54,219 bases of DNA from Desulfobacterales bacterium (GTDB lineage: Bacteria > Desulfobacterota > Desulfobacteria > Desulfobacterales > JAHEIW01): the NCBI GenBank assembly GCA_020348305.1, contig CP070746.1:5798489-5852707 (forward strand). Reading direction: 5' to 3'. The position numbers and the translations under genes are program-made. Below, piece by piece: positions 19,852-48,199 of the stretch. The notes beneath the pieces were generated by a model. It did no database searches. It was not told the origin of the DNA and worked only from the letters and a program-made list of their open reading frames with translations. The first letter of the stretch is position 1. The number at the start of each line of letters is the position of its first letter.

Positions 19852-19898
19852 AGCTGAAACCTATTTAGAATATTCACACAGTCGAATCATCACTTGCG

Positions 19899-22148: not shown

Positions 22149-22951
22149 GATCCTAAATCCTCGATGGCATCTTCTACAATTTTGCTATCAATAATTTTGG
22201 CCTTGCGCATCAATCCGATGAGCAAGCACCGATCACACAAATTGTTTGTCCGCAACGGAATACCGCCGGAGTATTCGTAGATGAGACCAATCGCTTCTTT
22301 AGAAAATATTCCCCGGGAAGCGCCGGCACTTTTTAATCGAAATAGAACATAGCGTAAAGTGTCTTTACTATCTAAGGGATCCAGATTGAACATTATGCTG
22401 ATCCTTTCCTTCAGCGGTTGGAGTTCCGTAATATTTTTTAGCAACGGCGGTTGGCCGAGTAAAATCAGAGTAATCAGAAATTCATCATCATGCTGCATGT
22501 TGAGCAGCATTCTTAACTCATCCAAGGTGGCCCGATTCCCAATCACATGGGCTTCATCGACGGCCAGCACCGTGCTGACTCCTTGCTGGGCATTCTGAAA
22601 TAGTAATTTTTGGAGTCGATCGAGCAGCACCGTTTTAGAGCCATTCGTGTTTTCCAAATTATCACCTAATTTTATTAAAATGGCTTTGATGAGATCGGTC
22701 GGTTGTAAGGCGGGATTTGATATGGTCTTGAGCTGAAATAAATCTTTATTGAGATAGCATTTTAAGGCTTTGGTAATGGTGGTTTTTCCGCAGCCAACCT
22801 CACCCGTGAGCATGGCAACCCCTTTGTGGTACTCGATGGCATACAATAACCGGCGCAGGGCTTCCTCATGCTGAGGTGATCTGAAAAAAATCTCACGACT
22901 CGGTACATTGCCAAAAGGTGCTTTTGCAAGACCCCAATGCTCTAAATACAT
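22145..22951 (-). CDS. ExeA/GspA-like AAA ATPase of exopolysaccharide loci
   Basis: A 268-residue cytosolic AAA-type ATPase. It opens MYLEHWGLAKAPFGNVPS, the hallmark start of the ExeA family. Walker A is GEVGCGKTT at residues 50-58, Walker B is VLAVDEAHVI, and a sensor-type RI motif occurs at LKERISIMFNL. Similar genes accompany exosortase/PEP-CTERM exopolysaccharide operons, where their role is unproven but may be assembly of the export machinery. Here it lacks the C-terminal peptidoglycan-binding domain of true ExeA. GAGGG precedes the ATG. It overlaps the export lipoprotein gene by ATGA, implying coupled translation. Confidence 0.9.
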   Translation of the reverse strand: MYLEHWGLAKAPFGNVPSREIFFRSPQHEEALRRLLYAIEYHKGVAMLTGEVGCGKTTITKALKCYLNKDLFQLKTISNPALQPTDLIKAILIKLGDNLENTNGSKTVLLDRLQKLLFQNAQQGVSTVLAVDEAHVIGNRATLDELRMLLNMQHDDEFLITLILLGQPPLLKNITELQPLKERISIMFNLDPLDSKDTLRYVLFRLKSAGASRGIFSKEAIGLIYEYSGGIPLRTNNLCDRCLLIGLMRKAKIIDSKIVEDAIEDLGS

Positions 22952-23035
22952 AATAACACCCTCTTCCTATGCATGGATGAGGTTACTTTCTAATGCAAGC
23001 AAAATAATTTAGACATATTATTATAAACAAATATG

Positions 23036-25373: not shown

Positions 25374-25746
25374 TCCAAAAATTTAATCCGCAGATTTTTC
25401 CGATTGCACCGATAACTGATTCTTGCTAACTTTTGGATTTTGTACAATATTACTTAAAAGAAGATATAGAAAACCATGTGTAAATGATGCACATATTATG
25501 CCATCAGCCAGGAAGGCATTGAAGCGTATAACTAATTAATATTATTAAAAATAGGCATGAATCTAATATAGGTAGGAATTTTTGCTGCTGTCAACAATGT
25601 GGCAATATTAGTCTCAATTGTCATTTTTATGGCAGTTGTCGAATCGTTCAAGGACAAAAATGTTTTGATTTAGAATACTTAGTGCTCTTATTCGTAATTG
25701 CAGTAACGTATTAACGGAAATATTTTTTCACCACAGAGACACTATT
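25374..25746. other. AT-rich intergenic region upstream of the exopolysaccharide operon
   Basis: It separates the DegT aminotransferase stop from the MraY-like start, both on the minus strand, so it should hold the promoter for the operon. I looked for GG-N10-GC (sigma-54) and TTGACA/TATAAT pairs and saw none that convinced. No gene or strong hairpin is seen. Confidence 0.4.
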
Positions 25747-26805
25747 TTAAGCGCCTACAATGGCTTCGATGACCCGCTGAACTTCCTGATCTGAAAGTGA
25801 TGGATAAATTGGAATGGAAAGTGATGTCCGCCAGGTGTTATCGGTAATTGGGTACCCCGTAAGCTTTAAGCAGTGATGAAGCGGCAAATAGATAGGCCGA
25901 GCACATCCAATGCCTTTTTGCACGAGCTTAGTGATCAATAGTTGGATATCGGTGTTTAAGCCGACGACAAATCGGTAATAGATGTGAGCGGGATCATCGG
26001 CAGGGAGCCTTAGGCTCAAGGATTGAAATGCCCTAAAATACTTTTGGGCGATGGTCCTGCGTCGCTGAATAAAGGCGTCCAGCTTGGCGAATTGCGCCAA
26101 TCCGACGGCCGCCTGGATGTCCGTCATCTTATAATTAAAGCGGGTTTCATACCGATCCTTTTGATCATATGCTTTGAGGTCCTTTATTCGGTTTGCCAGC
26201 TTTTTGGAGTTGCAGATGACCATTCCGCCTTCCCCACAGGTTATCACCTTGGTGGCATAAAATGAAAAGATGCACGCATCACCAAAGGCGCCCAGCGGTT
26301 TGTTACCGAAGTTGCCTCCCACCGATTGGGCACAGTCTTCGATAATGGGCACATTCAGCGCCAACAGCTTATCCAGATCGGCTGTCAAGCCGAACAAATG
26401 GGGAACGATAATCGCTCTGGTGCGGCGGGTCAGACGTTTTTTGACATCACCTGGATCGATATTATACGTTGCGGGATCTATTTCGGCGAATATCGGTGCA
26501 GCCTCCACATAGCGAACGGCATTGAGCAACGCCGCGCACACATAACTGGGCATGATCACCTCATGATTGGATCCGATCCCCATAGCCAACAGCGTCAGAT
26601 GCAACGCTGCCGTTCCCGAGCTTGTGGCAACCGCATATTTGGTATCCATTTTGCGGGCAAACGCGTCTTCGAATTCCTTTACCACTTGCCCTTCTGCAAT
26701 ATGGCCGGATTCAATAACAGCCGCAGCCGCTGTGATCTCCTCCGGACCCAAGGTCGGCCTCGAGTGTGGAATGAATTTTGGGTTCAATCTGTTATTAATA
26801 TCCAC
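25747..26805 (-). CDS. DegT/DnrJ/EryC1/StrS-family PLP sugar aminotransferase
   Basis: A 352-residue cytosolic aminotransferase. Evidence is the opening IPHSRPTLGPEEITAAAAVI, the cofactor-binding GTAALHLTLLA, PVFAEIDP-like text (APIFAEIDPATYNID), the Asp-binding IIEDCAQSVGG, and FSFYATKVITCGEGGMV, where the Lys forms the PLP Schiff base. It also has FNYKMTDIQAAVGLAQ. The family converts keto-sugar nucleotides to amino-sugar nucleotides for surface glycans. It lies next to a PIG-L deacetylase (66 bases apart) and a WbqC gene on the same strand, suggesting a small set for making a modified amino sugar. Substrate stereochemistry cannot be read from sequence. Confidence 0.92.
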   Translation of the reverse strand: MDINNRLNPKFIPHSRPTLGPEEITAAAAVIESGHIAEGQVVKEFEDAFARKMDTKYAVATSSGTAALHLTLLAMGIGSNHEVIMPSYVCAALLNAVRYVEAAPIFAEIDPATYNIDPGDVKKRLTRRTRAIIVPHLFGLTADLDKLLALNVPIIEDCAQSVGGNFGNKPLGAFGDACIFSFYATKVITCGEGGMVICNSKKLANRIKDLKAYDQKDRYETRFNYKMTDIQAAVGLAQFAKLDAFIQRRRTIAQKYFRAFQSLSLRLPADDPAHIYYRFVVGLNTDIQLLITKLVQKGIGCARPIYLPLHHCLKLTGYPITDNTWRTSLSIPIYPSLSDQEVQRVIEAIVGA

Positions 26806-26871
26806 AATGATTTTTCAGCTTGAATCGCAATGATCACTTGTTTTAGATGTCTAAATAGGCGCCTACTCAGA

Positions 26872-27495
26872 TTAGATGTTGATGAAAAGTCGAAGCGAAT
26901 GGAAAGCCTCTGCAAATTTGACCCTGCCCTGAATGCCTCGAAAGTTTGCACTTGACCGGGCAACTTCGACGATAGAGAGATCCTCAATGTTGGTTTTCAT
27001 CACCTGGGATCGATGGGCTTTGAGTGCTTGTATTTTCTTATCGAGGCTGTCGGCAATATCCACAAACACATGGGGCTTAAAATTTTGGGTAGTGGGCACC
27101 TCGAAGAACAACACATTTCGAATATAGCGCGTTGCGGACATAATGGCCTGGGCAAGGTGCCGGTGGTCCTGGTGGGTGTCGTCCGGAAAGTTGCAGAAAA
27201 TAAAATCCGGCTTTACATCTTTGATGACATCTTCGATTTTGCCGATCAGCTCTTTATCCACAATAAGATGGGTATCTTCATAGCCACCCCAGTAGATATC
27301 CGCGGCGCCCATAATTTCTTTGGAATCCATTTGCTCTGCCACTCGGGTAGCGGTTTGGGCACCAAATCCACCTTGCGTCATAACCAGCAAGAATAAACGG
27401 TGACCTTTCTGGGTGTATTTGATCAACGTACCGCCGCAGCCGACCTCAATGTCATCCGGATGGGCACCGATTGCCAGAATGTTGACTTTATCCAT
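26872..27495 (-). CDS. PIG-L/LmbE-family N-deacetylase
   Basis: A 207-residue zinc-dependent deacetylase of the GlcNAc-PI de-N-acetylase fold. The zinc and catalytic motif AIGAHPDDIEVGCGG lies at the N-terminus, with the second zinc motif region at FPDDTHQDHRHLAQA. The family removes N-acetyl groups from GlcNAc-containing substrates such as sugar nucleotides or lipid-linked sugars. The start MDKVNILAIG is chosen because GAGGGG lies 7 bases upstream. A longer frame adds eleven residues without support. Between an aminotransferase and WbqC, it probably exposes an amino group on a glycan precursor. Confidence 0.9.
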   Translation of the reverse strand: MDKVNILAIGAHPDDIEVGCGGTLIKYTQKGHRLFLLVMTQGGFGAQTATRVAEQMDSKEIMGAADIYWGGYEDTHLIVDKELIGKIEDVIKDVKPDFIFCNFPDDTHQDHRHLAQAIMSATRYIRNVLFFEVPTTQNFKPHVFVDIADSLDKKIQALKAHRSQVMKTNIEDLSIVEVARSSANFRGIQGRVKFAEAFHSLRLFINI

Positions 27496-27714
27496 ATAAT
27501 TCCCCTCAATCAATTTCGACGTCATCAAAAATGCTGCTTTTTATTCACCTTACAGATTGGAAAAAGTTAACCATTTCCGGAGTAATGAATTATTGCAGTA
27601 CTGGCGTACCGGAAACAATGGAGGAGTTACTACGAAATTCAAAAAGTACTCGACATGAAATGCATTCTCTCCGTCCGCAATACTAAGTCGTGGCTGGAAG
27701 CCACTCCCACATAT

Positions 27715-28401
27715 TCATGGATTCGCTTCCCAAATTTTATCCATGCTCTGCGGCCCACAGTTGAAGAGCAAATCCACAATCGACAGATGGGACTGAAACT
27801 GATTGAAGCGCTGCGGATAAACCGGGTGCTTGAATTCTTGAATGACCACCTTAATCCCGTGCTCTTCAAATCGTCCCAGATCCATATATTTTATACCATC
27901 CTGCCCGGACAGATACGTATCCGCCCCGACCGCTTTGCAAATATCCACTAACCGATCGGAAGGATCATCGCTTAGCATTAAACTTGAGGCCAGCATCGTC
28001 GGTTTGCTGTGAAGATTTAGAAACTCTCTGAGACGTTCAATTAAAAATACATTTAAGTCGGATAATAGCACCCAGTTTTCAGAAAAAAAATCTTTAAAAT
28101 GGGCTATATAATCGTTAAAATATGATGCCTTGCTGTAATTCGTGGTGAATGCCTGAAGATGCTTCTTTTTCCACTTCACCACATTATTGATTTCAACTTC
28201 ATTGATTTTTTGGGGAAAGCGGTACTGAACGGGAACGGTTATCCATTGCCAGCTTTGAGCGGTTTTAATTCGGTTGCGATTTTGCCATTCGTTTTTCTTA
28301 TACTGAACGTTATCCAAATAACAAAAAACGTCTGCTTTGCTCATCTTATCGAAATAGCCGAGCCATGGAAGATACTGAGGTTGATGAATTGCGACAATCA
28401 A
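27715..28401 (-). CDS. WbqC-family protein (probable TTG start)
   Basis: A ~228-residue protein with the WbqC hallmark IVAIHQPQYLPWLGYFDKM at its N-terminus, then NVQYKKNEWQNRNRIKT, WITVPVQ and QDGIKYMDLGRFEEHGIKV. WbqC proteins occur in O-antigen and exopolysaccharide clusters. They are thought to belong to N-acyl or amidating steps on sugars, but the reaction is not established. No ATG precedes the conserved motif. I place the start at TTG because family members begin with M(K)IAIHQPxYLPW and GGAG lies about 10 bases upstream. The frame stays open 46 codons further upstream, but those codons run through an inverted-repeat element and encode Pro/Arg-rich text unlike the family. Confidence 0.85.
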   Translation of the reverse strand: MIVAIHQPQYLPWLGYFDKMSKADVFCYLDNVQYKKNEWQNRNRIKTAQSWQWITVPVQYRFPQKINEVEINNVVKWKKKHLQAFTTNYSKASYFNDYIAHFKDFFSENWVLLSDLNVFLIERLREFLNLHSKPTMLASSLMLSDDPSDRLVDICKAVGADTYLSGQDGIKYMDLGRFEEHGIKVVIQEFKHPVYPQRFNQFQSHLSIVDLLFNCGPQSMDKIWEANP

Positions 28402-28445
28402 TCTGGGTCTGCTCCAAGATCTCTTAGAAGTCGGGCGGGCCTCTG

Positions 28446-28610
28446 CAGGCTGTCCAACAACCCTTGCAATTCCACGAATAGCCCTGCCCCTTGACGAGGG
28501 AGGGTTTGGGTGGGGGTGATAAAATTGGTGAGAAATCAAGATCTTATCTGACCACCCTCCCCTTAATCCCCTCCCATCAAGGGAGGGAAAACGAGTTGTT
28601 GGACAGCCTG
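28446..28610. repeat. MITE-like 165-bp element with 16-bp terminal inverted repeats
   Basis: CAGGCTGTCCAACAAC (28446-28461) is exactly complementary to GTTGTTGGACAGCCTG (28595-28610). Inside, CCCCTTGACGAGGGAGGG and CCCTCCCATCAAGGG are nearly complementary, and GGGTGGGGGTG pairs with CACCCTCCCC, so the whole element can fold into a long imperfect hairpin. It carries no transposase frame. It sits 45 bases upstream of the WbqC start and may have separated that gene from an older promoter. Confidence 0.75.
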
Positions 28611-32599: not shown

Positions 32600-34450
32600 T
32601 TATTTGCTGCTATTTGAAAATATAGGCTCTTTGTCCGAAATAGATTGCTGATAAGTTGCTATCGACTGGTAGTAATCATTGGCGTTTAAAAGAGATTGAT
32701 GGGTCCCGCCGTCAACGAGTCGATTTCCATTTATCAAAAGAATTCTATCCATCTGCCGGATAGTCGAGAGACGGTGTGTGGCGACAAATAATGTTTTTTG
32801 TCGAACCGCATCGGGAATCGCCTCAAAGATTGACTTTTCCATTTGGCTGTCCAAAGCGGCGGTGGGCTCATCCAAGATCAGTATGTCCGGATCCTTGATC
32901 AAAGCCCGGGCGATCGCAATCCGTTGTTTTTGCCCTTCAGATAGCTTAACGCCCTTTTCCCCGATATTCGTCTCATAGCCCTTCGGCAGGGTTTTGATAA
33001 CGTCATGCATACCGGCAACGCGCGCAGCTTTTTCGACCATGTTCGTATCCGCATCAGGTATTCCGTAGCGGAGATTCTCGATGATGGTACCGTCCAGAAG
33101 CCGCGGTTGTTGGGAAACATATCCGATGCGCTGCCGCAATGAACTTACATCGCAATCTGAAGCCGGCAGACCATCAAAATAAATCTCTCCTGCCGTGGGG
33201 CGGTAAAAGCGTAAGATTATACTTATCAGGGTTGTCTTGCCTACACCGCTGCCCCCAACAATTGCAACCTTTTCACCGGGTTTGATATGAAGACTAACAT
33301 CTTTGAGCACAGGTTCGCAGCCGTTGTAGGCAAAAGAAACATCCTTGAATTCAATTTCACCAATCAACCTTTCAACCTTACAACCGGAACCCATGTTTTC
33401 TTCGGGAATGATGTCAAAAAGCGCCGACACACGCTCCAGGGCTGCCAGGGCCTTCTGAAGTTGCAGGTTTGCCGAAGCCAAAAATTGTGCCGGACCAAAC
33501 ACATAGGCCAAATAGGCTTGATAAGCCAGTAGGGATCCCAACGTCCACTGACCTTTAATCACCCAAAAAGCGCCGACTGCTAAAACGACGGCACGGGCCA
33601 TTCCGGGCACGGAATTGATCGCTAAATTAGCCAATGAGACCACGCTGGTTTGTTCCAACGAGACTTGAAAAACCTTCTTCAACGCATTCATCAATCCTTT
33701 TTGGGTTCGATCCTCCGTAGCGTAAGCTTTGATCAACGGTGCTTCAGAAAGTGTCTCCTGGAAACGGCTTGAGATCTTCGCTTTTTGCTCCATGCTCTGA
33801 TGGCTTAAGATGTGAATTTTGCCGGAAAAAAAGCGAATACAGTATCCAATACCCGGCAAGAGGATTAAAACAGTAATCGATAGCCGCCACTCCAAATAAA
33901 ACAATAGGCCGATGCCGCCAGCAAAGCGTATGATATTGCTGATGACATGTATCATTGTGCAGGAAAAAAACCAGCGGATTCCCTCGACATCTGTTGTAAG
34001 ACGTGACATCAAGTAACCGGTCTGATTGTCGTCGAAAAATGACTTGGGAAAACGCAGCACACGGGCAATCAGATCCTGATGAATGTCAAGGGTGATGCGC
34101 CGCTCAAAGCGGGCAAAATAAAAGTCCTCTAAAACGCGCAAAAGTTTTTCGGCTGCTAAAAAGCCGATCAGCAGGACAATAGCGCTGGCCAGAAGTTCTA
34201 GTTGGCGTCCCAAGATGACCTCGTCGATCAGATAGCGGGTGATCAAAGGCGGCGGAAAACCGCATAGGGAAGCCAAAATAATAAGCCAAAAACCGACCAG
34301 TCCCTTGCGCCAGTGGCGCTGGTAGTAAGGTTGGAGTTTTTTCAGATTGCCCCTGGTACTGCCATAGCCGCCGGTACCCACGATACGGTCTGCGGGCAGT
34401 TTGCGCGCAAGGCCTCGTTTTAAATATGTAAACCAGCTATTTATCACCAT
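32600..34450 (-). CDS. ABC exporter (fused permease and ATPase), last gene of the RiPP cassette
   Basis: A 616-residue half-transporter. The N-terminal ~350 residues carry six membrane helices of the ABC_membrane type. The ATPase follows: Walker A GGSGVGKTT, Q-loop YVSQQPRLLDG, signature LSEGQKQRIAIARAL, Walker B ILILDEPTAALDS and H-loop ATHRLS. No C39 peptidase domain precedes the membrane domain, so it cannot cleave leaders itself. That fits the separate S26-type peptidase three genes upstream. The ATG follows the nucleotidyltransferase stop directly (TAGATG), so translation is coupled. Family members export lipids, drugs or peptides. Context points to the mature cassette peptide as cargo, which is inference. 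Confidence 0.9.
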   Translation of the reverse strand: MVINSWFTYLKRGLARKLPADRIVGTGGYGSTRGNLKKLQPYYQRHWRKGLVGFWLIILASLCGFPPPLITRYLIDEVILGRQLELLASAIVLLIGFLAAEKLLRVLEDFYFARFERRITLDIHQDLIARVLRFPKSFFDDNQTGYLMSRLTTDVEGIRWFFSCTMIHVISNIIRFAGGIGLLFYLEWRLSITVLILLPGIGYCIRFFSGKIHILSHQSMEQKAKISSRFQETLSEAPLIKAYATEDRTQKGLMNALKKVFQVSLEQTSVVSLANLAINSVPGMARAVVLAVGAFWVIKGQWTLGSLLAYQAYLAYVFGPAQFLASANLQLQKALAALERVSALFDIIPEENMGSGCKVERLIGEIEFKDVSFAYNGCEPVLKDVSLHIKPGEKVAIVGGSGVGKTTLISIILRFYRPTAGEIYFDGLPASDCDVSSLRQRIGYVSQQPRLLDGTIIENLRYGIPDADTNMVEKAARVAGMHDVIKTLPKGYETNIGEKGVKLSEGQKQRIAIARALIKDPDILILDEPTAALDSQMEKSIFEAIPDAVRQKTLFVATHRLSTIRQMDRILLINGNRLVDGGTHQSLLNANDYYQSIATYQQSISDKEPIFSNSSK

Positions 34451-35722
34451 CTATACCTGTTGTCCGGATGCACGAATCCGTTTCATGACAAGTTCCACAA
34501 ACCATCTACGCCAGCGGCGGACGTAGGAGAGGGGAAGCAGCCAATTGCGCGATGGCGGGTAGCACATGCGCACCATCTGCGGATGCGGAAAAAGAAGACG
34601 AAACAAAGAGCTCGCCATCGCCGATACTCCCCCAGGTCGTTTCAGGTAGCGCCGCAGCAAAACGCCTGCCCAATGCGACCTGCTTGAGTGGGACCACGTC
34701 ATTCGTTCGTCCGCTGTGGGTCGGGGCCAGCTGTTGAAGTTTCTAAATCCATCTGGCAGCCGCAGCCCGGTCCACACCAGAGCCATTTTCAGACAGTGTT
34801 CCACAGCCAGGCGGGCCCTCCAGGTAACGCTCCTATCTGGCAACACCTCCCAATCTTCGGGTATACGAAGGCCGCGGGCGAGCAAGGCAATGTCGTAAAT
34901 CCAGACAAGGCGAATATCTCGCCGATGAATCAGGGCTAAGTGAATGGCCGCATGAATGAGGGCATCCACGGGGTGCATCGTCTCAAAAGCCAGGTCAGAT
35001 TTCTCAACCGTGCTGGCTCGCCGGAAAAGGTCCTCCAACCTACCCCCACCACAGTCTTTGAAAAAAGGGTGCAGCTCCCAATGCACCCAGTGGAGATCTA
35101 CAGGGAGGTTGTCTTTCGGGTGCTTTTTGTGAACGTATTCCTCCTCCCGAAAAAAATCTCTGGTGACCTCGAACCTCTTGCCCAGGCAACCGTAACCCAG
35201 ATCTTCGAGGATTTTTCGGGCCTTCCTAGTCTGCTTCGGAAGCACCAGCAGATCCAAGTCACTGCCGGGCCTCAATGCAGGATCGGGATAAACAGAAAAG
35301 CCCAGAGCAGGGCCCCTCAACACCAAGAATCGAACCCCTTCCGTTTTAAACGCATCCAGAATTTCTCCGAGTTGCCTCTCCAGACGCAGAGAGCGAACAC
35401 GGCTTTCATGAAACGTCCTCCTTAACTGGCGGTTAACTTCTCCCGGTGGAAGGCATTCCTGCGGCAAGGAACCGATGCGCCAATAAAGCAGCGGGGCGAT
35501 CCAATGGGGCTTTAGCAGAGCAAAGAAATCATGCCATTGATCAGCAGTTGCCGCCGGAGCTATAGGAATCTCATTGCTTAGCAGTGACCCAATATAGGTT
35601 AGGATATTGGATGGGAGTTTGAAAAGCGCATTCCTCGGCTCACCGCAAAGCTTGAAATCGGGATGATTGCCGTACCACAGCTCTTTCAAGGATGAGGTTT
35701 TCAAGGAGATCTGGTCATTCAT
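34451..35722 (-). CDS. PF14907-type nucleotidyltransferase family protein in RiPP cassette
   Basis: A 423-residue protein with the minimal nucleotidyltransferase signature: VLRGPALGFSVYP followed by RPGSDLDLLVLPKQTRKA, where SDLDLLV holds the metal-binding Asp pair. It then has a third carboxylate region (PVDLHWVHWEL) and a helical C-terminal half. This is the layout of the family encoded in lasso-peptide clusters such as PadeN beside an HPr-kinase-like enzyme. In such clusters it is linked to modification of the phosphorylated peptide, though the chemistry is not fully settled. The start MNDQISLK is chosen because its ATG overlaps the peptidase stop (ATGA). A longer frame would add 18 residues inside the upstream gene. 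Its partner here would be the ScmC-like HprK homologue two genes upstream. Confidence 0.82.
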   Translation of the reverse strand: MNDQISLKTSSLKELWYGNHPDFKLCGEPRNALFKLPSNILTYIGSLLSNEIPIAPAATADQWHDFFALLKPHWIAPLLYWRIGSLPQECLPPGEVNRQLRRTFHESRVRSLRLERQLGEILDAFKTEGVRFLVLRGPALGFSVYPDPALRPGSDLDLLVLPKQTRKARKILEDLGYGCLGKRFEVTRDFFREEEYVHKKHPKDNLPVDLHWVHWELHPFFKDCGGGRLEDLFRRASTVEKSDLAFETMHPVDALIHAAIHLALIHRRDIRLVWIYDIALLARGLRIPEDWEVLPDRSVTWRARLAVEHCLKMALVWTGLRLPDGFRNFNSWPRPTADERMTWSHSSRSHWAGVLLRRYLKRPGGVSAMASSLFRLLFPHPQMVRMCYPPSRNWLLPLSYVRRWRRWFVELVMKRIRASGQQV

Positions 35723-36423
35723 GAGACACTCATTTTTTTCTGTGTGACAACGGTCGACTGATTCCGATCTAGCCACACTTTGGACGGATTGTCCGGCAGA
35801 TCCGCCTCATCCACAAACAGCCGAAAAGGAAACTGAATATTCCATTGACATCGGCGGCCATCGTATCGACCCACGACTCTCCTGCCTACCAGCAATTGAA
35901 GCTTAACCTGTCCGGCGATTTTAAAAATAGCGACACGGGGGCTGAAGTGCAAAGGTAACAGGCCCGATACCAAGCCCCGGCAACCGGCACCGCGATAAAG
36001 GGGATGTAACACAGGTCTAACTGCACGAACCAGGACACGTCGCCATCGATTTTTACGGGCCAATAGCCGCCCGACCCAACCTCCGGCGATTTTGCGATAC
36101 TGCCGGCCGCGCCATGCCGCCACTACCTGGCCAAGGATGTGGCCTGGGTCCAGAAGCCATGGATCGCAGGCGTTGCTGTTTTCACCACGCGTGCGAACGC
36201 CCCGTGGCGTTACGCAAACGACACGATGCACCACAGGCGTTTTTTGCCCGGGCGGTAAGCAAAATATTACGTCTCCGACCTGTATGCGCCTCTCGATATA
36301 GGGCCTGACCTGCAGTAGGTCCTGCTCCCCGAGAATTGGTTTCATGCTGGACCCAGCGAGCCCGCAGCAGAAAACACCCTTGGTTTTCTCATCTATTAGG
36401 TTAAAAAATGGTCCTATGTCCAT
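35719..36423 (-). CDS. S26-type (signal-peptidase-like) serine peptidase of RiPP cassette
   Basis: A 234-residue protein whose first ~110 residues match the S24/S26 catalytic core. AGSSMKPIL holds the nucleophile Ser, GDVIFCLPPG is the box before the general base, and PVVHRVVCVTP puts His where bacterial LepB has Lys. Ser/His usage is that of the archaeal/eukaryotic (S26B) branch. RTRGENSNACDPWLLDPGHI then matches the GDN-like box. No N-terminal membrane anchor is seen, unlike LepB. The remaining ~120 residues are Arg-rich and unassigned. In a cassette lacking a C39 or S9 peptidase, this is the best candidate for leader removal from the Cys/Gly-rich precursor. It starts 47 bases after the ScmC-like gene and overlaps the next gene by 4. 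Confidence 0.78.
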   Translation of the reverse strand: MDIGPFFNLIDEKTKGVFCCGLAGSSMKPILGEQDLLQVRPYIERRIQVGDVIFCLPPGQKTPVVHRVVCVTPRGVRTRGENSNACDPWLLDPGHILGQVVAAWRGRQYRKIAGGWVGRLLARKNRWRRVLVRAVRPVLHPLYRGAGCRGLVSGLLPLHFSPRVAIFKIAGQVKLQLLVGRRVVGRYDGRRCQWNIQFPFRLFVDEADLPDNPSKVWLDRNQSTVVTQKKMSVS

Positions 36424-36470: not shown

Positions 36471-37448
36471 TCATTGATTCTTGCAGCAGCAAGCGATCGC
36501 TCGCTCGATCTCATGCCAGAAGCAGCCGTTGAGGCTTAACTTCAGACGATAGACGGGAACAGCTTCGACTAACGCGCAGACGTTATTGAATCGTTCCGTA
36601 CGGAGGACGCGGAGTTCATCTTTCCTCAGTCCATGGGACATTGCCAAATAAGCCTGTTCTGCCGACTCAGTGAGCAGACCGATTGTCTTTCCGGCACCCA
36701 TGCTTTCCACGCGGTCTATGTTCGCCTTGTTCAAGAAGAAGATACCACTCAGGGGTACAGCATATTGCACATCCCAGCTACCGCCTGAGCCGCCAGATAA
36801 AAAAGCACTCCAGGTGGGCCAGGGGTGGGCCCAGTATACCCCCTGCTCGTCACGTATAATCAGGGTTGCGTCATCACACAGTGAGCGCCACGGATATGGA
36901 AGTCGTCGACTTGCGGTTGTCTTACCCCCTCCTCCCGGACCAGCCAAAATCACGCCGTATCCGTTCTTTTCTGCCAGAGCACCGTGCAGGAGAAATCCAC
37001 CTCGCGGCTGAGCATCGGCGCCAATCACCAGCGAAAGTTGCATGAGCTGCAAGACAAACAGGTCACTGCTTGTGACAGGGCTTAAGAAACAGGACATGAC
37101 GCCTGTACGAGCCTGCCGTAAGGCAAAACATAGGGCTGTTAATGGCGCTTTGTCACAGGCATATGAAGGGTACGATTGGGGACTGCCGGACAGTATGTTT
37201 GGTAACCGGCAATGCCCAAGTGATTTTCCGTCGTGGCTGTCCACACGCACAATCAATCGACGATCGGAACGGCAGAGCACTCTGAGTTGCATCGCCTGCC
37301 TGAGACCCGAGACGATGGCGGCTGCCTGCTCATCTGCGGCTGCAAAGCTCCACGTGGTCCCATCTGCCAGACCCAGACCAATGTCCGCTTCCGAACCGGA
37401 GCAAATTTCACTGCTCATTGGCATCCCCAGCTGCTGGACAACATTCAC
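36471..37448 (-). CDS. scmC: ScmC-like SynChlorMet cassette protein (HPr-kinase-related P-loop)
   Basis: A 325-residue protein with an HprK-like core. A His strand (GGFLLHGALAEKN) leads into the P-loop GVILAGPGGGGKTTASRRLP (GPGGGGKT at ~170-177), then SLCDDATLI, which matches the paired Asp of HprK. The later segment PLSGIFFLNK is the strand after the cap. HprK-type enzymes phosphorylate Ser/Thr, and relatives in RiPP clusters phosphorylate the peptide. The GTG start is chosen because GGAGG lies 8 bases upstream and the start falls 4 bases after the precursor stop. A frame open to 37700 exists but its extra 84 codons overlap the precursor gene and read as low-complexity Pro/Gly text. Assignment to ScmC is from cassette context plus fold. 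It was not verified against a profile. Confidence 0.8.
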   Translation of the reverse strand: MNVVQQLGMPMSSEICSGSEADIGLGLADGTTWSFAAADEQAAAIVSGLRQAMQLRVLCRSDRRLIVRVDSHDGKSLGHCRLPNILSGSPQSYPSYACDKAPLTALCFALRQARTGVMSCFLSPVTSSDLFVLQLMQLSLVIGADAQPRGGFLLHGALAEKNGYGVILAGPGGGGKTTASRRLPYPWRSLCDDATLIIRDEQGVYWAHPWPTWSAFLSGGSGGSWDVQYAVPLSGIFFLNKANIDRVESMGAGKTIGLLTESAEQAYLAMSHGLRKDELRVLRTERFNNVCALVEAVPVYRLKLSLNGCFWHEIERAIACCCKNQ

Positions 37449-37452
37449 CCGA

Positions 37453-37743
37453 TCATCCTCCGGGACCGGACGGACCGTTATTACATTCATTAGCGGCGCC
37501 ACTTCCGGTATCGCACTCCCGCCCGATGGCGCCGACCCCGGTCCTGCACCTTGGTCCACTGGCGCTTGTCCCTGTTCGGCAATTAGCATGTGCGGCACTG
37601 CCATCATTACACGACTGACCAGCCGCTGTGGCTGTTTGGCCGAGAGGGATCGCAACCGGGGCCTCATAGATCCGCTTTTCATTGGCCAACAAGGCGCCAT
37701 GTTCGTTAAATATTTTTGTGCGCGTGTCTTTCTGAATCGTCAT
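37453..37743 (-). CDS. Candidate RiPP precursor: 96-residue Cys/Gly-rich peptide with five CxxG units
   Basis: The peptide begins MTIQKDTRTKIFNEHG. A charged leader (~1-42, including NEKRIYEAPV) is followed by a core rich in Gly, Ala, Ser, Thr and Asn. Cys residues occur at 45, 55, 66, 77 and 87, spaced 10-11, each opening a unit: CNDG, CRTG, CRTG, CDTG and CNNG. It ends PSGPGG. Gene signals are strong. GGAGG lies 7 bases before the ATG, the ATG overlaps the radical SAM stop (TGATG), and the next gene starts 4 bases after its stop with its own GGAGG. Leader plus repeating core next to a PqqD homologue and two SPASM radical SAM enzymes is the classic RiPP layout. The modification is not known; thioether or C-C crosslinks at Cys or within CxxG units are possible. 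Confidence 0.82.
   Translation of the reverse strand: MTIQKDTRTKIFNEHGALLANEKRIYEAPVAIPLGQTATAAGQSCNDGSAAHANCRTGTSASGPRCRTGVGAIGRECDTGSGAANECNNGPSGPGG
37457..37461 (-). promoter_or_regulatory. Ribosome binding site GGAGG deciding the GTG start of the ScmC-like gene
   Basis: GGAGG lies 8 bases before GTG and spans the last two Gly codons of the precursor. It supports starting the HprK-related gene after the precursor rather than at the upstream ATGs at 37490 or 37700. Confidence 0.7.
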
Positions 37744-38870
37744 CAAACAACCTCCACAAGGTCATTCCACGCTAGTTGTGATACGTTGCTTTTCAAATTC
37801 TCCAAACGTGTCTTCGGAAACAGGCCGGCCTCCTGTGCCTGCTCACAGAACCAGAAGGGTGCCCAGATGTTTCTGCTCCGGTAATAGTTCTGGGCAATAC
37901 AGCTCCCCAGGCAACGACCTTTCATGACACATCCGGCACAGATGCCCTCAAAACGATGGGGAAGTCCCTCGCGAAGTTCCCGCAGCACCGGTGTGTGGTT
38001 CCAGACCTGCGCCAGATGATCCGTGGCGGCGTGGCCGAAGACAAGATCCGACACGGTCTCACCTATTCCACACAGGGCGTAGGATCCATCAGCCAGAACG
38101 CCGAGTATATCCAGAATTCCGCAAACCCCGCAGCCGTTCCCATGGGTGCCGAACATGTTGCCTAAAGGACGGAATGCCGGTGGGTGACCGTAGTAAAGCC
38201 GTAACGGTGTCGTATCTGCAAGAGCAGTCTCCGCCCATCTTCCTAAATCAACAAGCTCTTCAATGGTCAGTGCCTCTCCGCTCTCGTGCAGCCGTTGTCC
38301 TCTAGCCGTTGGCTGGACAAGGTTAAACTTGACCGATCCGGCACCCAGTGACTCAGCCAGACGGACGAGAGCCTCCATCTGATCTTTGTTATGCCGCATG
38401 ATCGTCATGATGAGTTGAGGATTGAGTCCGGTCTGCACCAGATTACGGATACCCCCAAGCGCGGCGTCGAAGCACCCCGGTACACCTCGAACCCACTCGT
38501 GGGTTTCCGCATCCGTACCGTCCAGGCTGACGGAGACAAAGGGATTTTTGCAGGCAGCCATTTTCGCGGTTAGCTCAGGCGTACACAGCACGCCATTGGT
38601 CTCAACCGTGAGACGGAGGTCTTCTGTCCGAATGAACTCCAACATCTCCTGAATTTGCGGATGCAGAAGCGGCTCGCCCCCCGTCAATTTGACCCCGCTC
38701 AGTCCGAGCGGTTTTGCCTGTTGAATGATCGATCGAAAAAGTTCGAGGTCCAGCGCAGGATGCGATCGCGCCTCGGTCCGGTAGCTGGGCGCAATCCAGC
38801 AGTGGCGACACCGCAGGTTGCAGTCGGCGGATAGGTAGAAATAGATTTGTTTTAACGGACCACTCAACAC
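37743..38870 (-). CDS. scmF: Radical SAM/SPASM protein, ScmF-like
   Basis: A ~375-residue radical SAM enzyme. From the GTG start, the SAM/[4Fe-4S] motif is CNLRCRHC at 17-24, preceded by IYFYLSAD. LTGGEPLLHP supplies the GGEP motif and VSVSLDGTD a later core strand. A SPASM region with auxiliary-cluster Cys residues lies at GNGCGVCGILDIL, ALCGIG, GICAGCVMKGRCLGSCIAQN and FWFCEQA. SPASM enzymes make C-C, C-S or C-O crosslinks in peptides. The GTG is preferred because AGAGGA lies ~10 bases upstream and it falls at the ScmE stop. A TTG 57 bases earlier is possible but lacks a ribosome site. The E/F labels follow gene order and N-terminal style and should be checked against TIGR04250/TIGR04251. 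Confidence 0.85.
   Translation of the reverse strand: MLSGPLKQIYFYLSADCNLRCRHCWIAPSYRTEARSHPALDLELFRSIIQQAKPLGLSGVKLTGGEPLLHPQIQEMLEFIRTEDLRLTVETNGVLCTPELTAKMAACKNPFVSVSLDGTDAETHEWVRGVPGCFDAALGGIRNLVQTGLNPQLIMTIMRHNKDQMEALVRLAESLGAGSVKFNLVQPTARGQRLHESGEALTIEELVDLGRWAETALADTTPLRLYYGHPPAFRPLGNMFGTHGNGCGVCGILDILGVLADGSYALCGIGETVSDLVFGHAATDHLAQVWNHTPVLRELREGLPHRFEGICAGCVMKGRCLGSCIAQNYYRSRNIWAPFWFCEQAQEAGLFPKTRLENLKSNVSQLAWNDLVEVV
37751..37755 (-). promoter_or_regulatory. Ribosome binding site GGAGG of the candidate precursor gene
   Basis: GGAGG lies 7 bases before the ATG of the small Cys/Gly-rich gene and inside the 3' end of the radical SAM gene. It decides the start of the precursor and shows that the small frame is translated in its own right. 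Confidence 0.8.
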
Positions 38871-39982
38871 GCCAACAGTTCCTCTTCCGGCAATCTTCCT
38901 CCCTCCTCCAGGAATCGTCTCAGACAAGCGTCGGGACTTGGATGATTCTCTTCACCGAGGAGGGTATATGCAAGCGCCGGACAGTTGCCGGTGCAATAGG
39001 GGATGTAATCGCAGCCCTGGCAAAATTCAAAATCACTCAAGGCAATATCCCTGCGCTCCCTGATACGCCTGAGTTCAGCATGGTTCTGCCAGACTTCCCG
39101 CAGATCGTCCCGGTTAATCCGCCCCAGCTCGATATGGCTCATTTGCTGGCAGGGAACCATGACGCCATCGGCTCGCACAGCTAGCGTGTTCAATGGCCCC
39201 CCGCACCCTGTCAGATACCCCCGTCCCGGAATGTTGGGTCGCCCTTCCCTGCGGGCTTCCTCCATCTCCATCCAGATCTTACCTTCGGCCAGCGGGCCCG
39301 CCGTTGCGCTGATGCGCCCATTGTATTTTTTTCTGAGTCTCAGAAGGGTCTTCATCGCAAGTGCACGCTCTTCCATCGTGAGCTGCACCTGCTCGGAATG
39401 CTGCCGGCAGAGACCCATAAACGAAGCGGCGTTGGTCGAAAAACTGTGTAGACCGACCTCTTCCAAAAGCAGCCTGGCAACTCCTTCAAGATCCTTTACA
39501 TTTCTCCGATGGATCGTGACCCGAACTGAAACCGAAACACCGTGTTTACTGAGAGACATGATTCCGTCCATCGTGCGTTCAAAATTTCCATTGCCCCGGC
39601 AGGCGTCGTGGGTGGCCGGCATTGAGCCATCGATAGAGACCTGAACTCCGTCACAGCGGCCGGTTTCAGCAACAAAGGCTGCCATTTCATCGGTGATCAA
39701 GGTTCCATTACTCAAGATGGTGAATCGCATCCGGTTGCGGACGATCCCATGGATGAGTTGCCTCAAATCTTGCCGGCAAATGGGCTCTCCACCCTCAAGT
39801 ATTACCTGCATGACGGCGCAGTCACTTAACTCTTCGAAAAACCGGAGCCATTCTTCGGTGGCAAGATCTTGATCGACATCTCCGGCACTACCAAAATGAC
39901 TGCAATACGCACACCGCAGATTACAGCGGCTGGTGATCGCCAGATCCACCGATCTTGGAGTACGGATGACTTTCATGCTCAC
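38864..39982 (-). CDS. scmE: Radical SAM/SPASM protein, ScmE-like
   Basis: A 372-residue radical SAM enzyme. The SAM-cluster motif CNLRCAYC sits at 20-27 after RTPRSVDLAITSR. VILEGGEPICRQDL is the GGEP motif and VQVSIDGSM a core strand. The SPASM region carries Cys at LTGCGGPLNTLAV, VPCQQMSH, FCQGCDYIPYCTGNCPA and DACLRR, enough for two auxiliary [4Fe-4S] clusters. The N-terminus is too short for a separate RRE domain, so it should depend on the PqqD-like protein for leader recognition. GTG is taken as start: GGAAGGA lies just upstream, one base after the scmD stop. An ATG two codons later is equivalent. It shares only fold-level similarity with the ScmF-like enzyme, so the pair probably performs different steps. 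Confidence 0.85.
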   Translation of the reverse strand: MSMKVIRTPRSVDLAITSRCNLRCAYCSHFGSAGDVDQDLATEEWLRFFEELSDCAVMQVILEGGEPICRQDLRQLIHGIVRNRMRFTILSNGTLITDEMAAFVAETGRCDGVQVSIDGSMPATHDACRGNGNFERTMDGIMSLSKHGVSVSVRVTIHRRNVKDLEGVARLLLEEVGLHSFSTNAASFMGLCRQHSEQVQLTMEERALAMKTLLRLRKKYNGRISATAGPLAEGKIWMEMEEARREGRPNIPGRGYLTGCGGPLNTLAVRADGVMVPCQQMSHIELGRINRDDLREVWQNHAELRRIRERRDIALSDFEFCQGCDYIPYCTGNCPALAYTLLGEENHPSPDACLRRFLEEGGRLPEEELLAC

Positions 39983-39983
39983 T

Positions 39984-40271
39984 TCAATCCTTCCGAATCT
40001 CGTATCCGACTAAACCTTGTTCACTCAGGTTCAGAATGAAGTCGTTTAAATGTTGCTCCGCCTCTTTAGGGACGTCTTCGCAGTTCGCTTGAAGCGTGTT
40101 TAAGATGTCTTCAACGGTGCGGTTCCCGTCCAGACATTTCCATACGAACACGCCGGTTGGATTGAGCCCGAAGGCATTGCCCGTATCAGGATCGAAGAGA
40201 ACGGCCCAGTCATCGAACTCTTCCCTCAGCACCACCAAAGGATTGGCGATGGGCATATCGTTTTCCGGCAT
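39984..40271 (-). CDS. scmD: PqqD-family RiPP recognition protein, ScmD-like
   Basis: A 95-residue PqqD/RRE protein. Typical strands and helices are LREEFDDWAVLFDPDTG, AFGLNPTGVFVWKCLDG (the N-x-x-G-x-x-x-W/L-x-x-L-D-G hallmark), RTVEDILNTLQANCEDV and a long C-terminal helix. PqqD proteins bind the leader peptide and deliver it to the radical SAM enzymes. It is the first gene of the cassette. The start MPENDMPI is chosen because AAGGAG lies 9 bases upstream. A longer frame adds 22 residues without support. Stop and next start are one base apart, so translation of the whole cassette appears coupled from here. Confidence 0.88.
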   Translation of the reverse strand: MPENDMPIANPLVVLREEFDDWAVLFDPDTGNAFGLNPTGVFVWKCLDGNRTVEDILNTLQANCEDVPKEAEQHLNDFILNLSEQGLVGYEIRKD

Positions 40272-40700
40272 AACTGACTTCTCCTTCTTTCCGCTAGACT
40301 GGCTACCAAAATTGGCAACGTGCAAACCTATCCACAAGGTTCTGCCCGTGTCCCATACTTATTTATATCATCGGCACTATTTGGGATGCATCAAAATCGG
40401 AAGTATTTATTGAAATCTCAATTAATTATGCAAATTTTGTACCATCAAAAGATTCTATAAATTTTCTTATATGTGTTGGATTTTGCCTGGCAAGAAACGC
40501 ATAATTATGGTCAGGGCGACAATTTTTTGTCGATGTGAATGTCAAATTTAGCATCAAGACGGTGAAGAAAGTAGCCGCCATGTGAGGTCACTTCAAATGC
40601 CGTTCTAGTTCAAACAGGACAATCGCGGGTATGCCTATATCATTTGGTGCGTTTGCTAACAGTTTTTTTTGCAACATTTCCTATTCCTTTAAAATAATAA
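40272..40700. other. AT-rich region upstream of the RiPP cassette, with possible decayed coding text
   Basis: The cassette promoter should lie here. Read leftward, TATAAAT near 40363-40369 could be a -10 box, but no well-spaced -35 is seen, and AGG-N11-TTGC further down is too poor for a sigma-54 site. On the minus strand near 40590-40655 a stop-flanked frame reads IGIPAIVLFELERHLK, like a PIN-domain fragment, and another reads HGGYFLHRLDAKFDIHIDKK. Both end at stops and look like remnants. The sharp drop in GC at the cassette edge is visible by eye. Confidence 0.4.
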
Positions 40701-43572: not shown

Positions 43573-44424
43573 TTAGCCCTTTGTAGTCGTTTGGGCTCCC
43601 GCCGGTGCCCCCGATGTTGGTGCCGCTGGTGGTCTTTCAGCCTTGGGTGGAGCAGACGGCTCTTTTTTCTCTTGTGGTGGTGCAGCAGCGGTTTTCGATT
43701 CACTTACAGTCGTCTCGGGACGTGGACGTTTTTGATCTGCCGTCACTTTTTCGCGCTTTCGAGGCGTAATTTCTTTGCGCCCATCGATGGTCACCAGAAG
43801 AACCGGTGGAATGACGTCTTCCATTTTTTTGCGATTATCGAAAAAGGCATTTCGGATGTTGGAGGCGTGAATGGCAATTTCTTCCATGTCCGCATTGCCG
43901 CTGTCCTCCAAATCAGAAATCTTATCCATTATTTCAAGAATGATTCTATTCAGCGGATCGTCTTGGCCCTTTTCCTTGTCCAGGTGTTTTCCCATCGCGT
44001 TGAGGTTGGCGATGGTGAGCGGATAAATTCGATAGCCATCCCTCGGTGAACTGTAAACCGACTGGAGCACGCCAAGAATAACGGAAAGGTTCTTGGAATA
44101 GATGCCTCCTTTATGCCATTTTGTCATCATGCCAAAAATTCGGTTAACAATATAGGCATTGGGTTGCACCGCTGAAAGCAGCAAAAACGGATCGCGCTCA
44201 CCGATAAGGGCATCAATCACCCAATGGTTCTCGATTTCAAGGATTTTTAAAAAAAGTGCGCAATTTTCGGGGGTAATCCCAACTGTACTTAGAAAATTGG
44301 CATACGTAATGGCGGCTTCAACCGCTTCGGTTGTTCTGCATTGAAAGACGCCATGCAAAAGCTGGATTTCGATATCACCAATTTTTTCTTCCGTCCAATT
44401 TTCGTTATATTCATAAAATGTCAT
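43573..44424 (-). CDS. Unknown protein, paralogue of its upstream neighbour, with Pro/Ala-rich tail
   Basis: A 283-residue cytosolic-looking protein with no signal peptide or membrane helix. Residues ~30-210 are clearly homologous to the next gene: LFLKILEIENHWVIDALIGE, DPFLLLSAVQPNAYIVNR, VYSSPRDGYRIYPLTIANL and NAFFDNRKKMEDVIPPVLLV each have close matches there. The last ~70 residues are disordered and rich in Pro, Ala, Lys and Glu (KKEPSAPPKAERPPAAP), and are absent from the paralogue. AAGGAGG precedes the ATG. I do not recognise the family. The helical pattern and context beside motility-like and PilZ proteins suggest a regulatory or scaffolding role, without proof. Confidence 0.8.
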   Translation of the reverse strand: MTFYEYNENWTEEKIGDIEIQLLHGVFQCRTTEAVEAAITYANFLSTVGITPENCALFLKILEIENHWVIDALIGERDPFLLLSAVQPNAYIVNRIFGMMTKWHKGGIYSKNLSVILGVLQSVYSSPRDGYRIYPLTIANLNAMGKHLDKEKGQDDPLNRIILEIMDKISDLEDSGNADMEEIAIHASNIRNAFFDNRKKMEDVIPPVLLVTIDGRKEITPRKREKVTADQKRPRPETTVSESKTAAAPPQEKKEPSAPPKAERPPAAPTSGAPAGAQTTTKG

Positions 44425-44457: not shown

Positions 44458-45153
44458 TTAACCTGTAAAAAGATAATTCGGTGCAACTTCTTCTTCGAGA
44501 TAATCTCCTCGAACAATGAGCACCTGAGGAATTATGTCTTCCAGCATCTTTGTGTTGTCAAAAAAGGCGGTCCTTATCTTGAGGGCTTGTCTGGCCACCT
44601 GTTCCATATTGTCATCTAACCGAAGTCCTTCAAGGCTTCCAATTTTTTCGAGAATATCCAACATACATCTGTTTCTGGGCTCGTCTTGGCCGCCTTCCTG
44701 CTCTAAGTGCTTCCCGAGGTTGTCGATATCCGATATCGTCAACGGGTAAATTTTGTATCCGTCTCTTGGCGAACTGTAGGCGTTTTGGAGAACTCCCAAT
44801 ACAATGGCAAGCGTTTTCGGATAAATGCCTCCCGGACGCCATCTGGTCAGTAATTGAAAGCATCTGGATACAAGGTAATTGTTGGGCGGAATTGTTGAAA
44901 GCAGCAAGAAGGGGTCATTTTCACCAATCAATTCATCCAATACCCAGTGGTTTTCAATTTCCAGCATCTTCAAGAACAACGGATAATTTTCGGAAGTCAA
45001 TCCGGACTTCCTGAGAAATTGGGCATAGCTGACACATGCCTCAACAGATTCAACAGTGCGTGCAGACATTAATTGATGAAGTACTCTGCTCTCCGTCATC
45101 GGAATTGATTCTTTTGCATCCTGCAGGGTTGTTTCATTTTCTTCTTTTGCCAT
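44458..45153 (-). CDS. Unknown protein, paralogue of its downstream neighbour
   Basis: A 231-residue protein sharing most of its length with the following gene. Matching blocks are LFLKMLEIENHWVLDELIGE, DPFLLLSTIPPNNYLVSR, LGVLQNAYSSPRDGYKIYPL and FFDNTKMLEDIIPQVLIV. Invariant text such as EIENHWV, SSPRDGY and YPLTI marks the likely functional core. The start MAKEENETT is chosen for the AGGAAAG upstream. A longer frame adds 30 unsupported residues. The two genes are 33 bases apart and plainly arose by tandem duplication. No known domain is recognised. Confidence 0.8.
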   Translation of the reverse strand: MAKEENETTLQDAKESIPMTESRVLHQLMSARTVESVEACVSYAQFLRKSGLTSENYPLFLKMLEIENHWVLDELIGENDPFLLLSTIPPNNYLVSRCFQLLTRWRPGGIYPKTLAIVLGVLQNAYSSPRDGYKIYPLTISDIDNLGKHLEQEGGQDEPRNRCMLDILEKIGSLEGLRLDDNMEQVARQALKIRTAFFDNTKMLEDIIPQVLIVRGDYLEEEVAPNYLFTG

Positions 45154-45654
45154 GATTCTTTCCTTTCCTTGATTTATTTCCAAAGATTTAAAGTTGAAAA
45201 ATATTTGATATGGCCTCGGGTCGCCATTTTCAGGCGATGTCATACTTTCTATGTTTGTCGGATATCAGGTGTCGATTTGTGTATCTGAATAGAAGTATCG
45301 ATTTTCGGATCTGAATTATAGAAGTATTCAAATTGATGTCGCTGTAGAACTTATCGAAATTATAACATTTTGTTAAAAAAGTATCAAGAAAATCATCCGA
45401 CCATATTCTTTGGTTTTCTATATTATCGGCTGGATTTCATTGAACTTTAGATAAAAAAAAGTGGAATTTATCAATTAAAGTAAAGTTTTCGCGCAGCGTG
45501 TCGATAACGTATTTAGTCTCTTTACAAAATCGAGCGAATCCTCCTCAATTGAGCCGAGCTCAATGAAGGGACACGTGTGCCGTAGTTAAATTTCGACATA
45601 AAAAGCCGGGGCCTTTGGGGCCAAATTCTCTACTTCTGAGAAAATATATCGGAC
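45154..45654. other. AT-rich divergent intergenic region
   Basis: It separates the paralogue pair from the plus-strand cNMP/PilZ gene and must hold both promoters. A short GGCC-TTTGG-GGCC hairpin lies at 45609-45622 upstream of the plus-strand gene. I compared the area with a c-di-GMP (GEMM) riboswitch and did not find the conserved core. No gene is seen. Confidence 0.4.
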
Positions 45655-46873: not shown

Positions 46874-48199
46874 TTATTTCATACTGGTTTTCTGAGCATC
46901 GGTGGATGATCGAGATGTTGTTGGCTTGCGTCGCATGGGTTGATCCGTGATGGCGGAGGAATACGGATGAATCCATTCTTCTGTGCTGAGACCTGGGGCG
47001 ATGGCCTTTGGCTGAACAGCTTTTTGGAGTGAAAAAATGAGCTTTTCGTAGAGATGATCCAGTTTTTCAACCATCGCTTCCAGACTAAACCGGCGACAAT
47101 ACAATCTTCCCGCCGCTCCCATTTTTTTTGCTTCCGACGGATTGTTTACAAACCATAAGATAGCTTCGGCCAAGGCTTGCTCGTCACCCGGCGGCACCAA
47201 CAGCCCTGTTTTTTGATCTTTAACTAAATCCGGAATTCCGCCTACCCTACTGGCTACAATAGGTTTTCCGGCGGCCATGGCCTCAACCAGCACACGACCC
47301 ATACCTTCATTGAGAGACGGCAGCACAAAAATATCAAAAATCTGCATAATTTCTGAGATATCATCACGCCACCCCAAGAAATGAACTCTACCATATGCAT
47401 TTAATTGAAGTGTTAGAGCTCGCAAATCTACGTCCAAATTGCCTTTGCCGACAAACACCAAGGAGGTATCCGGATGTTCCTTCCAAACTTTTGGCATCGC
47501 TTGCAACAGGTGCATCGGGCCTTTGATGGGCAGCAGCCAGCCGACGAATCCGATCAGCAATCCGTTTGGCAGCAGTCCCAACGATTGCTTTTTTTCAATG
47601 GCATTGACCGGGGCTGAAACATAACAACGGGTGTCCACCCCACTGTGAATGGTTAGCAGGTTTTTCGCTCGGCCCACAGCCAGATTGACATAATCTTGCT
47701 TTTCCCCCTCAGTCAACGCGATAATTCGATTCGTAATGGAAGCGAACCATTTTTCGATCCAAAGAAAAATCTTGGATGTTTGGGGATTAAAATGGCCGTA
47801 AAAAACATGGCCGTGAGGGGTATGAATAATAATGGGAACACAGGCCAACTTCGCTGCCAAGCGGCCCAGGATACCAGCCTTGGAAGAATGCGTGTGAACA
47901 ATAGCCGGTTTTTCTTTTACTATTAGCCATATCAAAAATAATATTGTGCGAATGTCTTTGGCCGGATGGATTCGACGCAAAAGCGAAGAAATGCATATGA
48001 ACCTGACGCCGCTTTGCTTGGCTTCATCAATGGCCTTTTTGACGCTGCGCTTCTCTGAATCCGTCATATGCGATTCCAGAGAAGGGCCGTGCACTAAAAC
48101 CATCTCGTATTTTGAGCTCAATTCCCGGCAGGTCAACAGGGTGTTTTGAGCAGATCCGCCCATGTCCAGGCGCGTGATGATGTGAAGAATTTTTTTCAA
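46874..48199 (-). CDS. Glycosyltransferase family 4 (GT-B)
   Basis: A 441-residue cytosolic retaining glycosyltransferase. MKKILHIITRLDMGGSAQNT shows the N-terminal Rossmann start with the donor-side GG, HTHSSKAGILGRLAAKLA follows, and the GT4 donor site is FVLPSLNEGMGRVLVEAMAAGKPIVA (E-x7-E pattern). The C-terminal ~45 residues are basic and disordered. It probably adds a hexose or similar sugar to a lipid-linked glycan at the inner membrane. It is the last gene of the tight minus-strand glycan operon and overlaps the methyltransferase gene by ATGA. Confidence 0.92.
   Translation of the reverse strand: MKKILHIITRLDMGGSAQNTLLTCRELSSKYEMVLVHGPSLESHMTDSEKRSVKKAIDEAKQSGVRFICISSLLRRIHPAKDIRTILFLIWLIVKEKPAIVHTHSSKAGILGRLAAKLACVPIIIHTPHGHVFYGHFNPQTSKIFLWIEKWFASITNRIIALTEGEKQDYVNLAVGRAKNLLTIHSGVDTRCYVSAPVNAIEKKQSLGLLPNGLLIGFVGWLLPIKGPMHLLQAMPKVWKEHPDTSLVFVGKGNLDVDLRALTLQLNAYGRVHFLGWRDDISEIMQIFDIFVLPSLNEGMGRVLVEAMAAGKPIVASRVGGIPDLVKDQKTGLLVPPGDEQALAEAILWFVNNPSEAKKMGAAGRLYCRRFSLEAMVEKLDHLYEKLIFSLQKAVQPKAIAPGLSTEEWIHPYSSAITDQPMRRKPTTSRSSTDAQKTSMK

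Follow-up and report, generated by a model that had tools for sequence, protein, structure and literature searches.

The 96-residue frame at positions 37453–37743 (minus strand) of the window, i.e., the whole 54,219-nucleotide stretch of Desulfobacterales DNA analyzed here, is almost certainly the precursor gene, scmA, of a SynChlorMet (SCM) operon of eight genes, as its sequence and surroundings indicate. The assignment draws on the translation, with its five CxxG units, on the coupling to the neighboring genes, on a match to the NCBIfam model TIGR04252, and on 68 further homologues from SCM loci. The initial annotation had proposed this frame as the precursor of the cassette, and the proposal is borne out by homologous frames elsewhere and by the presence of ScmC, ScmD, ScmE, and ScmF above their curated cut-offs in one operon. 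The sequences themselves establish the operon, the fusions between its genes, and a precursor family with its motifs.

Coding Evidence for scmA

Read from 37743 to 37453 on the minus strand, the frame translates as MTIQKDTRTKIFNEHGALLANEKRIYEAPVAIPLGQTATAAGQSCNDGSAAHANCRTGTSASGPRCRTGVGAIGRECDTGSGAANECNNGPSGPGG followed by a stop codon (96 aa); the plus strand over 37453–37743 reads differently, and scmA belongs to the minus strand, which the initial annotation leaves unstated. The cysteines at positions 45, 55, 66, 77, and 87 all lie in CxxG units (5/5). The start codon overlaps the ScmF stop by one base, the A of TGATG, and has a GGAGG upstream; the junction with ScmC reads TGA-TCGG-GTG. The CxxG cysteines, the GGAGG, the TGATG overlap, and the gap of four bases, all reported when the frame was first described, were confirmed. 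Five CxxG units were reached in 8 of 200,000 shuffles of scmA's own residues, and among the 345 window frames of at least 40 aa, scmA alone has at least four.

No stop codon interrupts the ScmC frame across the scmA region (36471–37700), which leaves room for the view that scmA is a chance product inside an upstream extension of scmC. The synonymous-codon score, compared over the three sense frames, is nevertheless best in the scmA frame (8.0), against -7.1 in the frame of the overlapping upstream ScmC extension and 2.0 in the other. In the precursors of two close relatives (loci L058 and L061, 82% identical), dN is 0.10 and dS 0.88 in the ScmA frame, an excess of silent changes that vanishes in shifted frames; most other close precursor pairs point in the same direction, and the ScmA frame is, judging by these substitutions, under purifying selection. 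Moreover, ScmC relatives have their starts downstream of ScmA. Conservation therefore does not extend to the longer ScmC frame, contrary to a possibility raised in the initial annotation, and many homologous ScmA frames sit away from ScmC. An accident of the extended scmC frame is ruled out by the ScmC starts, the codon score, and dN/dS, and we consider it extremely improbable.

The ScmA Family and Its Distribution

The only family match of the frame is TIGR04252, "SCM_precur_ScmA", which describes the same type of cassette and aligns end to end (model positions 1–49 of 49) with scmA residues 26–74 at E 5.4e-5. The cassette and its precursor family are therefore already named, and we rejected the earlier reading that the precursor was unknown, together with the statement that the family descriptions identify none. 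However, the window copy differs from TIGR04252 in the five CxxG units of its 96-residue precursor and in its score of 23.3 bits, below the curated cut-off of 35, so that the model misses it. Its place in the cassette and its homologous leader and CxxG core assign the frame to the ScmA role, and we treat it as a diverged homologue, not as a member of TIGR04252 confirmed by the model. This is not peculiar to the window: at its cut-off the model matches 0 of 39 ScmF-bearing genomes, and thus leaves their precursors unnamed, and at E 0.01 it matches 15 of 65 ScmA homologues.

To place the frame among its relatives, SCM loci were gathered in two ways, by searching the phylum and class of the window for ScmF and by scanning genome contigs for ScmE, giving a set of 81 with three duplicates removed. 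The bacterial loci come from Desulfobacterota-type genomes, Chlorobi, Nitrospirae, Omnitrophota, Aminicenantes, Chloroflexi, Lentisphaeria, Brocadiaceae, and others, and the archaeal ones from methanogenic archaea. An ScmA profile, built first from ten hand-picked seeds and then widened, recovered 69 ScmA-like precursors in 59 of the 81 ScmE/ScmF loci, whereas 37 control loci with other radical-SAM enzymes yielded none (E<0.05); two extra precursors picked by eye, in L106 and L160, bring the number of loci to 61 of 81. Most other cassettes carry a homologous short frame, with this leader and CxxG repeats, at the corresponding position or close by, as the comparison suggested in the initial annotation had anticipated, and in three genomes (G157, G291, and G087) precursor and cassette lie on separate contigs.

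Whole-genome searches with the profile matched 35 of the 39 ScmF-bearing genomes, many of which were in the training set. Among 389 genomes of the class, 20 matched at E 1e-6, seven of them outside the training set (G434, G448, G472, G485, G544, G563, and G644), and in all seven an ScmF-, ScmC-, or ScmD-like gene stands beside the match. The frame of one of these (locus L186, from G434) was found by the alignment profile and was not re-found by the local one. The kinase, peptidase, or transporter went undetected in some SCM loci, but these are often short contigs, as many SCM loci are, and such absences mean little.

The distribution of the cassette appears patchy even within a genus: G600, which is 84% complete and belongs to the same genus as G000, gave no match to ScmF or the precursor, and queries with the flanking genes for an empty-site comparison returned no usable syntenic match in it. 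As a separate observation, the cassette of locus L041 holds two Cys-rich precursors, ScmC in two copies, and a 567-aa frame (L041:4370-6073) between ScmE and ScmF.

The Operon and Its Enzymes

All eight genes lie on the minus strand, in the order ScmD, ScmE, ScmF, ScmA, ScmC, signal peptidase I-like (SpI-like) peptidase, NTP_transf_5, and ABC exporter. Two of them encode radical SAM/SPASM enzymes, namely scmF (37743–38927; TIGR04251, 615 bits, cut-off 400) and scmE (38864–39982; TIGR04250, 636 bits, cut-off 400). The alignment-invariant cysteines of ScmE, at 260, 278, 321, 324, 330, 334, and 353, fit a full SPASM domain, and its nearest solved sequence is SkfB (6efn). Upstream lies scmD (39984–40337; TIGR04248, 124 bits, cut-off 100), a discrete PqqD-type RRE whose best-scoring relative among solved structures is TbiB1, a lasso RRE (5v1u/5v1v, E 6e-6); the start that it has in common with its relatives probably corresponds to the ATG at 40274.

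Downstream of scmA, scmC (36471–37448, GTG start; TIGR04249, 184 bits, cut-off 125) encodes a kinase-like protein of the HprK/PEPCK fold, with a Walker A sequence GPGGGGKTT, a CDD motif, and invariant residues H155, K176, D192, and D193. Its profile finds HprK as the best among solved sequences (E 0.004), and a Foldseek search with its predicted model (pLDDT 82) places PEPCKs closest and HprK second. The next gene (35719–36423) encodes an archaeal-type SpI-like protein, the predicted leader peptidase, which matches TIGR02228 at E 1e-8, below the cut-off, as such proteins do in most loci scanned; Ser26, His66, and Asp87 are invariant in its alignment. It is followed by an NTP_transf_5 nucleotidyltransferase (34451–35776; PF14907, E 1.6e-46), for which a role in phosphate tailoring is predicted, and by an MsbA-like ABC exporter (32600–34450; PF00664 and PF00005, with MsbA families near E 1e-120). 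In other loci some of these genes are fused: ScmC and the SpI-like peptidase are joined, in both orders, in L047, L058, L060, L061, L092, and L103, and peptidase and nucleotidyltransferase in L056, L067, and L097.

An exopolysaccharide locus of the XrtA/PEP-CTERM type flanks the cassette (window 16016–28539 and 46874–48199), with genes for an O-antigen ligase-like protein, a Wzc-like tyrosine kinase, an export protein, an XrtA-associated ATPase, a WecA-like enzyme, and a glycosyltransferase. Relatives of the Wzz, Wza, and ATPase genes occur in 12 of 55 SCM loci of at least 10 kb versus 0 of 35 controls, which recalls the link with capsules seen for the linear polyphosphorylated peptides (LPPs) discussed below. 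Two adjacent genes elsewhere in the window (43573–44424 and 44458–45243) look by eye like tandem paralogues, and the latter has no NCBIfam match.

Anatomy of the Precursor

The ScmA family has a common plan, i.e., a YExP leader, an [AG]x[GA] site, and then C-x-x-G-[S/G/T]-x-[A/P] repeats. In the window, the leader carries YEAP (Tyr26–Pro29, 37657–37668, minus strand), a predicted RRE-binding motif of the YxxP type. The form [Y/W/F]xxP is present in 68 of 69 members, the remaining one having Ser for Pro, and the first position is Tyr in 58 of 69; the same motif class is found in lasso, PQQ, and LPP leaders (PMC13381572, PMC12710340). The leader is indeed charged, as was said of it at the outset, but it is better described as an RRE-binding YxxP leader of the lasso/PQQ/LPP type that ends in a signal-peptidase-like AxG.

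This end, Ala40-Ala41-Gly42 (37618–37626, minus strand), is the predicted cleavage site, with the cut before Gln43. Of the 69 members, 47 have an [AG]x[GA] ending at most three residues from the first CxxG Cys; 2000 shuffles gave 15 such members on average and never more than 28. The leader, charged and without a hydrophobic segment, led us to reject a reading of "AxGxC" as a lipoprotein signal. A subfamily of precursors with AYA or AHA leader ends (L043, L056, L057, L059, L066, L078, and L079) has a classical signal-peptidase-like site and many Cys, and in several of these loci the SpI gene went undetected.

The core, from Cys45 to Gly96 (37456–37611, minus strand), consists of the five CxxG units. 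Over the 69 precursors, 212 of 307 Cys-Cys intervals are 10 or 11 residues long, and of the 374 Cys that could be scored, 86% have Gly at +3; that each unit receives one modification, as initially suggested, is plausible. Ser49 (37597–37599, minus strand), at +4 of the first Cys, is the predicted phosphorylation site. Ser occupies this position in 37 of 69 first units versus 50 of 254 later ones (54% vs 20%), with a Fisher p of 8e-8 that is indicative only, since the sequences are related and relatedness was not corrected for; about half of the precursors have no Ser at +4 of the first unit.

Proposed Maturation Pathway and Its Alternatives

Every chemical step of the pathway that follows is one that we infer. 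Two literatures provide the framework. LPPs were reported from Bacillota, and in Paenibacillus alginolyticus a Ser of the core, close to where the leader is cut, receives a phosphate from an HprK-like kinase, and an SpI-like peptidase, assisted by the RRE, removes the leader (PMC13381572). The complete LPP core set, i.e., RRE, HprK-like kinase, SpI-like peptidase, NTP transferase, and MsbA-like exporter, is present in the window, and for this reason SCM can be read as an LPP-like line to which two SPASM enzymes have been added. LPP also resembles the window's cassette in having a discrete RRE, in its YxxP leader, and in the frequent proximity of its loci to polysaccharide loci (PMC13381572). 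Unlike the LPPs, SCM is found in archaea, in Desulfobacterota-type genomes, and in others, and of the LPP leader motif YxxPxVLxHQxIxFETxxS, ScmA has the YxxP part and no FETxxS stretch; the LPP paper makes no mention of radical SAM (PMC13381572). The second framework is streptosactin, a type II unnested sactipeptide with a Cys31-Gly34 Calpha thioether, which has in common with SCM a SPASM radical-SAM maturase and the exact CxxG spacing, but differs in its single radical-SAM enzyme and 14-residue product (PMC8172795); no kinase or SpI peptidase is described for it, and the SCM thioethers are predicted ones.

Phosphorylated lasso peptides, such as paeninodin and pseudomycoidin, are a further point of comparison. 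They resemble SCM in their [Y/W]xxP leader, B1 RRE, HprK-like kinase, and nucleotidyltransferase, and differ in that the kinase targets the C-terminal Ser; moreover, neither a lasso cyclase nor a B2 leader protease is present among the eight cassette proteins (the seven scanned neighbors and ScmA). In pseudomycoidin, PsmN, a nucleotidyltransferase related to that of the cassette, adds a hexose to the phosphorylated Ser (PMC9266682). The open-licence literature searched yielded no SCM product or enzyme activity, and no paper on SynChlorMet or Scm by name or TIGR number.

In the proposed pathway, ScmD, as a lasso B1/PqqD-type RRE, would hold the YEAP motif of the leader, a step that we consider highly likely given a YxxP leader and a lasso-like RRE. 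The two SPASM enzymes, ScmE and ScmF, would then act repeatedly along the CxxG units; a precursor role with radical-SAM action on these units, whatever the bond, is nearly as likely. For the bond, the streptosactin spacing, identical to CxxG, offers a candidate: the sulfur of Cys(i) would be joined to the Calpha of Gly(i+3), giving the window core up to five small unnested rings at -2 Da each, up to -10 Da in total, an analogy to which we give slightly less than even chances. ScmC, as an HprK-like kinase, may well phosphorylate the core, with the balance of probability modestly in favor; that the target is Ser49, after the first unit, is a somewhat weaker proposition, just short of even. The nucleotidyltransferase would decorate the Ser49 phosphate. 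The SpI-like Ser/His peptidase probably cuts after Ala-Ala-Gly42, because the AxG/AxA site is enriched and the peptidase has invariant Ser, His, and Asp, and the MsbA-like transporter would export the core.

The chemistry on the cysteines admits other readings, both of which have to be weighed against the Cys-Gly(i+3) thioether. Known cyclophanes have aromatic residues as their acceptors, and CxxxD ranthipeptides have Asp/Glu. The radical-SAM enzymes could link Cys elsewhere, at Cbeta or Cgamma as in ranthipeptides or to Ala/Pro at +6, or could carry out a non-thioether change of the epimerization type. Ala or Pro at +6 of 61% of Cys could serve as acceptor in place of Gly +3, whose role may be limited to a turn. 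ScmE and ScmF also match numerous SPASM families that differ in their chemistry, including the ranthipeptide enzyme PapB and the PQQ enzyme PqqE; the presence of two radical-SAM enzymes itself suggests a second chemistry beyond the thioether model. Nevertheless, Ala, Pro, Val, Asp, and Gly all occur at +6, an odd range for a single acceptor, and +3 is almost invariably Gly, while the cores are poor in aromatic residues and in Asp/Glu. This reading, which keeps the same precursor role for scmA, is a serious but somewhat less probable contender. The other reading, a Cys-rich secreted peptide with disulfides or bound metal on which the radical-SAM enzymes act elsewhere, would agree with the plentiful and evenly spaced Cys and Gly, but odd Cys counts (3, 5, 7, 9, or 11) outnumber even ones (42 of 69 precursors), which disfavors pairwise disulfides, and in the operon, with its two SPASM enzymes, we noticed no gene for an oxidoreductase; we regard this reading as unlikely.

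Implications

The motif set described here, i.e., YExP leader, AxG site, and CxxG repeats, provides a usable definition of the precursor, with dozens of examples from bacterial phyla and archaea, and makes the SCM product directly testable. If the thioether prediction holds, the streptosactin precedent gives a simple expectation for mass, namely a loss of 2 Da per unit, and the match to the LPP gene set supplies working hypotheses for ScmC and for the unnamed peptidase, nucleotidyltransferase, and exporter genes. Tentatively, and with the chances somewhat against it, SCM cassettes may form an undescribed class of RiPPs in which linear chains of small Cys-Gly(i+3) thioether rings and a phosphorylated, possibly glycosylated, Ser are built on the LPP line. 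If this were true, the product would have one ring per CxxG unit and a modified Ser at the first unit, made by two radical-SAM enzymes and an LPP assembly line common to archaea and bacteria.
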